64,000 nucleotides of DNA from an uncultured Neomegalonema sp. (GTDB lineage: Bacteria > Pseudomonadota > Alphaproteobacteria > Rhodobacterales > Rhodobacteraceae): NCBI GenBank assembly GCA_937928005.1, contig CALFVD010000044.1, positions 1 to 64,000 of the forward strand, in the 5' to 3' direction. Numbering within the stretch: position 1 is the first letter of the stretch; the number at the start of each line of letters is the position of its first letter. A program made the position numbers and the translations under genes. Shown piece by piece: positions 21,670 through 55,390 of this stretch. The notes below the pieces were generated by a model. The model had not been told where the DNA came from and did no database searches. It saw nothing but the letters and a program-made list of their open reading frames with translations.

Positions 21670-21783
21670 TTTTGATCCAAAAGTGATATTATGGGTTATA
21701 GTGGCACCCTCAACCGCTGCCGAGCGATCGGGCGCGGCCCTGAACATTTTGTTGGAACCGCCGGAAACTTCTACCATAATTAT

Positions 21784-21871
21784 AGCGAATTGCGATAAAC
21801 TTGAGCCATATTTCACGCCAAGAGCGGCGTAAAATATGGCGCTTGATAATTCAGGATAATCGCAATTCGCT
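21784..21871. repeat. 88-bp palindromic repeat, copy 1
   Basis: Terminal AGCGAATTGCGAT/ATCGCAATTCGCT perfect inverted repeat; inner GCCATATTT/AAATATGGC stem. Confidence 0.85.
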
Positions 21872-21899
21872 TTAAGATCACGTTAGACACTTGGTAGCT

Positions 21900-24854: not shown

Positions 24855-25466
24855 ATGAAGAACCCCGCGATTGCGATGATCGGCCTGCTTGCCCTTGCCG
24901 CATGTGGCGAGGAAACGAGCGCACAGAACGATAGGACGCAACAGAGTGTCGAGGCTCCCACGGAGCAAACCGACGCTGCATCCAAGGTAGAGGAAGTCGC
25001 AGAAGCGACAGCTGCGCCCGCCGCCGAGCCGGAGCCGGTAGTCGATGCCGTGATCGCGTTTAAGAGCGAAGATGGCGAGCTTGCCCTGCCCCGCGAAGCC
25101 CTGATGATGGTGTCACCCGTCCATGATGGCGATGGCGACACATGGTCGGTTTTCGTGCAAATGGAAGAAGCGGCGGCTGAGAGGTTCTATACCCTGACGA
25201 CCAAGATCGCCGGTGAGGCCATGTCGATCATCGTGGATGACATGGTGGTAAGCACGCCGATTCTGGACCAGCCGGTCTATGGTGGTGGATTTGTTTTCCA
25301 AGTCGATAACGACAAAGTGGCCAGCACTGTCGTCGCGGCGCTGAAAGGGCAGGAAGAGGCTTTACCGTTGGGTGTTGCCGTTGCCGCCGAAGAGGCTTTG
25401 CCAAGCGATGAAAACGACGCCGAAGAGGTGGCGAGCGCGGATGAGGCGGATGATTTGGACGAATAA
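24855..25466 (+). CDS. Putative lipoprotein, acidic
   Basis: Signal/lipobox IGLLALAAC followed by low-complexity E/A-rich sequence. Confidence 0.7.
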   Translation: MKNPAIAMIGLLALAACGEETSAQNDRTQQSVEAPTEQTDAASKVEEVAEATAAPAAEPEPVVDAVIAFKSEDGELALPREALMMVSPVHDGDGDTWSVFVQMEEAAAERFYTLTTKIAGEAMSIIVDDMVVSTPILDQPVYGGGFVFQVDNDKVASTVVAALKGQEEALPLGVAVAAEEALPSDENDAEEVASADEADDLDE

Positions 25467-25516
25467 CCGATAAAGAGATGCAGAGGGACTGCACCACCCC
25501 GTTTCCCTGATTTTAA

Positions 25517-25604
25517 AGCGAATTGCGCAAACGTTGAGCCACAAAGTATCAGGTTTCACGCGAGTCTTGGCGGGAAACCTGATTCAATAAATGCGCAAAT
25601 CGCT
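25517..25604. repeat. 88-bp palindromic repeat, copy 2 (inverted orientation, swapped inner stem)
   Basis: AGCGAATTGCG...CGCAAATCGCT ends; inner stem ATCAGGTTT (25548-25556)/AAACCTGAT (25575-25583). Confidence 0.75.
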
Positions 25605-25649
25605 ATAGGGAAGCGGGGTTTTTTGCGCGCTGACCTGCGCCATGTTTAT

Positions 25650-25737
25650 AGCCATTTGCGATAAACATGAGCCATATTTCACGCCAAGAGCCGCGCAAAA
25701 TATGGCGTCTGGTAATTCAGGATAATCGTCATTTGCT
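25650..25737. repeat. 88-bp palindromic repeat, copy 3
   Basis: AGCCATTTGCGAT...ATCGTCATTTGCT ends, core near-identical to copy 5; abuts scoB stop codon. Confidence 0.85.
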
Positions 25738-26361
25738 TTAGTTAATGAGCGTTGCCGCCGTTTTTTCGCGCATCTCGGCATCGGTAACATTGGGCGCAAG
25801 CTCAACAACTTTCAAACCGCCCTCAACCACATCGAAAACGCCAAGATTGGTGATGATACGATCAACAACGCCCGCACCGGTCAGGGGAAGCGTACATTCC
25901 TTTAGAAGTTTGGATTCGCCTTTTTTATTGGCATGATCCATCACAACGATCACGCGGCCCACACCAGCCACAAGATCCATCGCGCCGCCCATACCCTTCA
26001 CGAGTTTGCCGGGGATCATCCAATTGGCGAGGTCGCCGTTTTCGGCCACCTCCATCGCGCCGAGAATCGCGGCGGCGATCTTACCCCCCCGGATCATGCC
26101 GAAGGATGTCGCAGAGTCGAAATAAGCAGTACGCGGAGCTTCGGTAATTGTCTGCTTACCCGCATTGATCAGGTCCGGGTCTTCATCGCCCTCAAAGGGA
26201 AATGGCCCCATGCCCAGCATCCCGTTTTCGGATTGCAGGGTGATATCCTTGTCACCCGTATAGTTGGCCACCAACGTCGGGATGCCGATACCGAGATTGA
26301 CGTACATGCCGTCTTCGAGTTCCTGCGCGGCCCGTTCGGCCATCTGGTTACGATCCCACAT
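25738..26361 (-). CDS. scoB: 3-oxoacid CoA-transferase subunit B
   Basis: YVNLGIGIPTLVANY, SENGMLGMGPFP, GGAMDLVAGVGRVIVVMDH. Confidence 0.93.
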   Translation of the reverse strand: MWDRNQMAERAAQELEDGMYVNLGIGIPTLVANYTGDKDITLQSENGMLGMGPFPFEGDEDPDLINAGKQTITEAPRTAYFDSATSFGMIRGGKIAAAILGAMEVAENGDLANWMIPGKLVKGMGGAMDLVAGVGRVIVVMDHANKKGESKLLKECTLPLTGAGVVDRIITNLGVFDVVEGGLKVVELAPNVTDAEMREKTAATLIN

Positions 26362-26402
26362 GGGCTTGGTTCCTCTTCATAACTCGTCTCTGGCCTATCT
26401 AT

Positions 26403-26478
26403 AACGATTTGCGGTGAATCTGAGCCATATTTAGCGCCAGATATGGCGCTTGGTAATTCAGCATCATCGCAATTCGCT
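26403..26478. repeat. Palindromic repeat, copy 4 (76 bp, shortened loop)
   Basis: AACGATTTGCGGT...ATCGCAATTCGCT with GCCATATTT...ATATGGCGC core. Confidence 0.8.
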
Positions 26479-26532
26479 GTGGCGTGCGTCATCGTTGCGG
26501 TACAGCCTTCCAGCCAAGAGCCGAAAGGGTCG

Positions 26533-36655: not shown

Positions 36656-36660
36656 TCTAT

Positions 36661-36748
36661 AGCGATTTGCGATAAACCTGAGCCATATTTCACGCCAAGA
36701 GCCGCGCAAAATATGGCGTTTGATGATTCAGGATAATCGCAATTCGCT
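36661..36748. repeat. 88-bp palindromic repeat, copy 5
   Basis: AGCGATTTGCGAT...ATCGCAATTCGCT ends; lies between convergent ivd and rluE; TA-flanked. Confidence 0.85.
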
Positions 36749-36752
36749 TTAG

Positions 36753-55313: not shown

Positions 55314-55390
55314 GGTCCCGTAGCTCAACTGGATAGAGCAACTGACTTCTAATCAGTAGGTTGAAGGTTCGAGTCCTTCCGGGATCGCCA
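55314..55390 (+). tRNA. tRNA-Arg (TCT anticodon)
   Basis: Acceptor GGTCCCG/CGGGATC, anticodon arm ACTGA-CTTCTAA-TCAGT, GGTTCGAGTCC T-arm, encoded CCA. Confidence 0.93.

Follow-up and report, generated by a model that had tools for sequence, protein, structure and literature searches.

The DNA analysed here, a window of 64,000 nucleotides, comes from the draft genome (3.96 Mb, 87% complete) of a Neomegalonema (Alphaproteobacteria), a wastewater-type bacterium whose close relatives are Neomegalonema MAGs. A short repeat, referred to as copy 2, begins 47 bp downstream of an ORF with a SecDF head domain (24855-25466), where it sits in the gap of convergent genes and adjoins another copy of the repeat (25647-25740); the next gene past this region encodes a CoA-transferase subunit. 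The parts of copy 2, its flanks and the other copies in the window are as follows.

25514..25607, minus strand: copy 2, a complete subfamily B element of 94 bp from TA to TA (sequence read and genome search)
25580..25607, minus strand: left terminal inverted repeat, 28 nt, closing with the TTGAATCA box (alignment A1; box common to IS630 ends)
25574..25583, minus strand: 5' arm of the inner stem, ATCAGGTTTC
25558..25573, minus strand: apex of the inner hairpin, CCGCCAAGACTCGCGT, with the conserved CGCCAAGA loop
25548..25557, minus strand: 3' arm of the inner stem, GAAACCTGAT
25538..25547, minus strand: one-sided 10-nt spacer ACTTTGTGGC from the inner hairpin to the right end
25514..25541, minus strand: right terminal inverted repeat, 28 nt, with the box TTGAGCCA on the opposite strand (alignment A1 and comparison of IS630 ends)
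25497..25508, plus strand: left arm, CCCCGTTTCCCT, of a predicted intrinsic terminator with copy 2 inserted in its loop
25607..25624, plus strand: right arm, AGGGAAGCGGGG, of the same predicted terminator plus T6 (flanks joined with one TA)
25647..25740, plus strand: subfamily A copy
21781..21874, plus strand: subfamily A copy
26400..26481, plus strand: A-type copy shortened to 82 bp, with the inner hairpin apex reduced
36658..36751, plus strand: subfamily A copy filling the gap of two convergent genes (ORF ends 36655 and 36753)

Read directly on the minus strand from 25607 to 25514, copy 2 is TATAGCGATTTGCG-CATTTATTGA-ATCAGGTTTC-CCGCCAAGACTCGCGT-GAAACCTGAT-ACTTTGTGGC-TCAACGTTTG-CGCAATTCGCTTTA. 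The preliminary description had given it the termini, loop and 88-bp length of its family together with inner arms that differ and still pair, and the direct read confirmed this: copy 2 equals the A copies in its termini, in the CGCCAAGA loop and in the 88 bp from AGCG to CGCT, and carries the inner arms ATCAGGTTT/AAACCTGAT. Measured from TA to TA, the natural repeat unit comes to 94 bp rather than 88 bp. The last 4 nt of the left terminal inverted repeat overlap the beginning of the inner 5' arm, and the 10-nt asymmetry introduced by the spacer is found again across the family.

The repeat belongs to the IS630-type MITEs, as a subfamily whose inner hairpin is compensated. It is short (94 bp), non-coding and of high copy number, with at least 150 matches in the source genome and a paired outer stem. 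The ends in this genome read TA-(T/A)AGCGAWTTGCG, and most full copies begin and end with TA. A TA target and its duplication are indicated by these ends, by tandem copies that overlap by exactly one TA, and by the terminator rebuilt at copy 2. There, the flanks joined with one TA are predicted to fold into a long stem (-37.2 kcal/mol) that ends in T6; this is an intrinsic terminator, and copy 2 inserted into its loop without damage to either arm or to the T run (25497-25624). A general insertion into terminators was rejected, at least 8 crossing pairs being present in 65 of 130 copies and in 71 of 130 with shuffled flanks. The sister species, in which synteny is lost, offered no orthologous empty site for alignment.

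Ends matching those of an IS630 element are the usual evidence for an IS630-type MITE. IS630 loci of 1051 bp each in two sister species (L128 and L133) match the MITE ends at both ends, and a third sister-species locus (L120) does so at one, with IS630-versus-MITE end scores of 18-22 and shuffles reaching at most 16; the proteins of L128 match HTH_Tnp_IS630, DDE_3 and NF033545. Within the genus, IS630 ends such as TAGAGTCCTTGGCGATCAGGTTGAGTCA match the MITE ends TAGAGTCATTCGCGATCAACTTGAGTCA and TAGAGTCATCCGCGATCAGGTTGAGCCA. An intact partner transposase with matching ends was not found in the source genome, a draft at 87% completeness; the DDE_3 matches present there were discarded as autonomous partner because their ends differ, and several of them have adjoining MITEs. 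Four subfamily A copies (L136, L140, L145 and L146) lie near partial IS630 (DDE_3) genes of the same genome. A search of the plasmid collection for the element gave no match.

Copy 2 is not a lone oddity: at least 15 full-length elements of subfamily B are present in the genome; the genome search recovered six copies at 98-100% identity, copy 2 included, and 11 more at 91-93%. Subfamily A is commoner than B, with about 100 copies. Among 119 full-length copies the inner arms belong to a few discrete types, GCCATATTTY (A1), GCCATGTTTC (A2) and ATCAGGTTTC (B), mostly perfectly paired save for the lowest pair; A2 (GCCATGTTT) differs from A1 by a single pair. The earlier suggestion of distinct subfamilies thus agrees with the collected copies, which formed no continuum of random stem decay and did not place copy 2 in an unrelated repeat family. 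The description of the inner stem as swapped holds insofar as the paired arms differ, but the change from GCCATATTT to ATCAGGTTT covers 4 of the 9 inner pairs, and regions between the stems differ too, A1 and B being distinct at 31 of 94 positions. Seven base pairs have changed between A and B, the four inner ones included, with all seven compensated and none broken, and this pairing is not due to chance. Subfamily B forms its own clade (support 98/95) and is about equally near to the elements of other species and to A (63-65 of 94 positions), indicating that the A/B difference is old. A recent arm replacement in one copy was discarded, B being a subfamily and a separate clade. No protein or sRNA recognising the variable stem was found, and none is needed.

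A/B mosaics with mismatched arms (L025, L030, L036 and L037), each a single copy, switch at the loop. L029 and L032 (C43:23071-23152 and C198:280-345) carry the inner hairpin at its usual place but in inverted orientation with respect to the element ends. Mosaics and inverted hairpins fit hairpin-linked rearrangement but are few, and the rarity of the mosaics could reflect merely rare recombination.

The same layout, with different but perfectly paired inner stems, is seen in 13 of 14 Neomegalonema genomes and sporadically across the family. Such stems (among them GTCAGAATTC, GTCAGGAATT, GCGATGTTTC, ATCAGCATTC, GTCAGTTTTC and ATCACCATTC) each face their complement, ATCAGCATTC including one G-T pair, and enclose a CCAAGA loop. 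In an alignment of 16 related elements, 18 of 32 pairs are changed on both sides and 92% of the cells pair, as against 81% in column shuffles (none of 500 as high) and 28-41% with the partner shifted by 1-3 columns; RNAalifold, unaided, predicts the same helices. In a non-redundant set of 15 sequences, with near-duplicates removed, covariation is seen at 10 of the 13 inner and 9 of the 13 outer pairs, with 148 Watson-Crick cells against a shuffle maximum of 124. Outer-stem covariation alone is weak evidence and is expected from end recognition alone, since both transposon ends track the same protein. Taken with the shuffle and slid-partner controls, the covariation is consistent with the selection on hairpin structure that the preliminary description had proposed. 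In alignment A1, C27-A28 lie in the end box, and their partners T57-G58, outside any end, are also invariant; the TTGARYCA end box extends over the four bases with which the left inner arm begins, and this would account for the unchanging C27-A28.

Within subfamily A, 111 inner-stem changes are one-sided and 6 are compensated. The mismatches of the resident A copies comprise 31 G-T and 82 A-C, or 21 and 20, respectively, without pairs 34-51 and 36-49. Resident copies thus drift, their changes being mostly one-sided and A-C at least as common as G-T, and they show no sign of RNA-level constraint nor of frequent templated repair. One-sided decay within A, as opposed to full compensation between lineages, indicates that pairing is kept in spreading lineages and not in resident copies; on the most economical reading, it is in the copies that spread that pairing matters.

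Somewhat probably, these non-autonomous IS630-type MITEs, which insert at TA, depend on a symmetric inner module for mobilisation. An IS630-family transposase acting in trans would presumably move the MITE via its 28-nt ends, and the symmetry or hairpin of the inverted-repeat module that occupies the region between them would be required for this movement. The module may extrude or fold as DNA and so bring the two ends together in an element whose length is below the DNA persistence length. A source element with one arm changed would then spread only after a matching change in the other arm; the subfamilies (A, B and their counterparts in other species) would thus show paired arms, whereas the copies left behind would decay freely. 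Arm pairing shared within subfamilies would follow from the spread of only those source elements with both arms changed, and we infer this selection on source elements from the patterns of few independent lineages.

A purely mutational origin, in which fold-back (quasi-palindrome) templated repair or replication copies arm onto arm with no benefit needed, is unlikely to account for the paired stems. Fold-back or template switching does occur, as the two inner-hairpin inversions (L029 and L032) and the loop-switching mosaics attest, but the predominance of one-sided, uncorrected changes in resident copies (the 111 against 6 of subfamily A) makes templated correction infrequent, and the earlier suggestion of hairpin-templated copying is therefore not upheld as a frequent process. 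The single-pair difference between A2 and A1 is a prediction of stepwise compensation and also counts against templated copying. The inner arms might instead form a second, internal dyad for the transposase or a host protein, with half-sites that track one protein and folding unnecessary. Inverted binding sites covary too, and the left inner arm begins within the TTGARYCA end box; the arms, however, are unequally distant from the ends (25 versus 35 nt), IS630 ends are without the inverted copy, and A and B, which share their outer ends within one genome, have different stems, which makes such a dyad a rather poor candidate. Very improbable is selection at the RNA level, with a transcribed hairpin regulating neighbouring genes as an RNase III/RNase E site, attenuator or terminator, as proposed for NEMIS and ERIC: the strong predicted fold, the gene-adjacent location and the position of copy 2 within a terminator speak for it, but G-T, tolerable in RNA, is no commoner than A-C in resident copies, single copies decay without compensation, the copies have no general terminator preference, and Rfam covariance models (gathering score) matched nothing in the whole window but a tRNA at 55314-55387, leaving the repeat without a match.

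A covariance-model scan gave matches in 34 of 397 genomes of the family, and in a class-wide sample in 5 of 338, namely the source genome plus four from three further families. The layout mostly recurs with unrelated inner sequences, as a 24-nt end, an inner hairpin, a 10-nt one-sided spacer and a 24-nt end, with inner hairpins of about 36, 46-48 or 57-60 nt across lineages. In an end-pair scan that ignored the interior, 25 of 29 genome-by-class entries fell within three length classes. These measure about 93-95, 103-106 and 114-118 bp (loci L197-L223 and L320-L322). The length classes and the 10-nt spacer are suggestive of helical phasing, confounded by common descent and by the two-arm class of 114-118 bp, and the length-class concentration of 0.66-0.69 is alike for any period from 10 to 13. 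A class with two hairpin arms and the same outer ends was observed in L216 and L220, with pattern matches in G386, G388 and G022, and two loci of G009 (L084 and L093) hold a 106-bp variant with B-like ends (TTGAATCAG) and a different inner module with AGCTTTCG arms. It may be suggested, tentatively and with some doubt, that a transposon superfamily of Rhodobacteraceae-type Alphaproteobacteria uses a replaceable inner hairpin as a required mechanical part of transposition, free in sequence, kept in pairing and displaced from one end by roughly one helical turn, and that the discrete classes of total length would serve the folding or phasing of short DNA for synapsis.

To our knowledge, DDE transposons such as IS630 are generally held to require their ends alone. 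Inner arms that change in sequence yet stay paired over many lineages suggest an extra structural requirement for the spread of a MITE, and the several stem types and many decaying copies of one genome constitute a natural data set in which selection at spread can be separated from selection at residence.

RUP of Streptococcus pneumoniae is an IS630-associated MITE for which no structure or function signature beyond the ends was reported (PMC2229807). The Neomegalonema element resembles it in size (about 100 bp), in having TA at its termini and ends in common with an IS630 element, in its number of mostly intergenic copies (about 100) and in insertions near IS elements, but differs in having an inner hairpin, a conserved loop, a one-sided 10-nt spacer and several paired stem types. 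In REPINs compensatory changes are common, and the spacer varies in sequence while its length and pairing are kept (PMC3116915). The element is like REPINs and REP doublets a short mobile hairpin with changing sequence and lasting pairing; compensated hairpins are thus already known, and the Neomegalonema case differs in its ends and transposase family. RAYT tyrosine transposases and conserved REP 16-mers characterise REPINs, whereas the present element has a TA target and IS630 ends, and GTAG-type REP ends are absent from it, its ends being TA-(T/A)AGCGAWTTGCG flanked by TA. Correia/NEMIS and ERIC, with reported effects on mRNA processing (PMC2229807), are likewise small repeats with TIRs, TA ends and long stem-loop folds, but the mismatch spectrum of the Neomegalonema element does not point to constraint at the RNA level. 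CIR of Caulobacter and Brucella (PMC2229807), of about 110 bp, is also an alphaproteobacterial repeat with GANTC sites; it consists of two separate arms and a linker, whereas the Neomegalonema elements are each predicted to form one nested hairpin and do not conform to CIR, of which the two-arm class of similar length in some relatives is reminiscent. Bru-RS1/RS2 of Brucella (cited in PMC2267715), palindromic alphaproteobacterial repeats of 103-105 bp, are likened here by description only.

GANTC (CcrM methylation) sites are enriched in the end boxes and loop, 12 of them being counted over 15 non-redundant elements compared with 5.3 in shuffled ones. Dam methylation controls IS10 transposition, and the GANTC excess could possibly reflect a cell-cycle control of transposition. 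In the 94-bp element these sites are at positions 23-27, 42-46 and 68-72.
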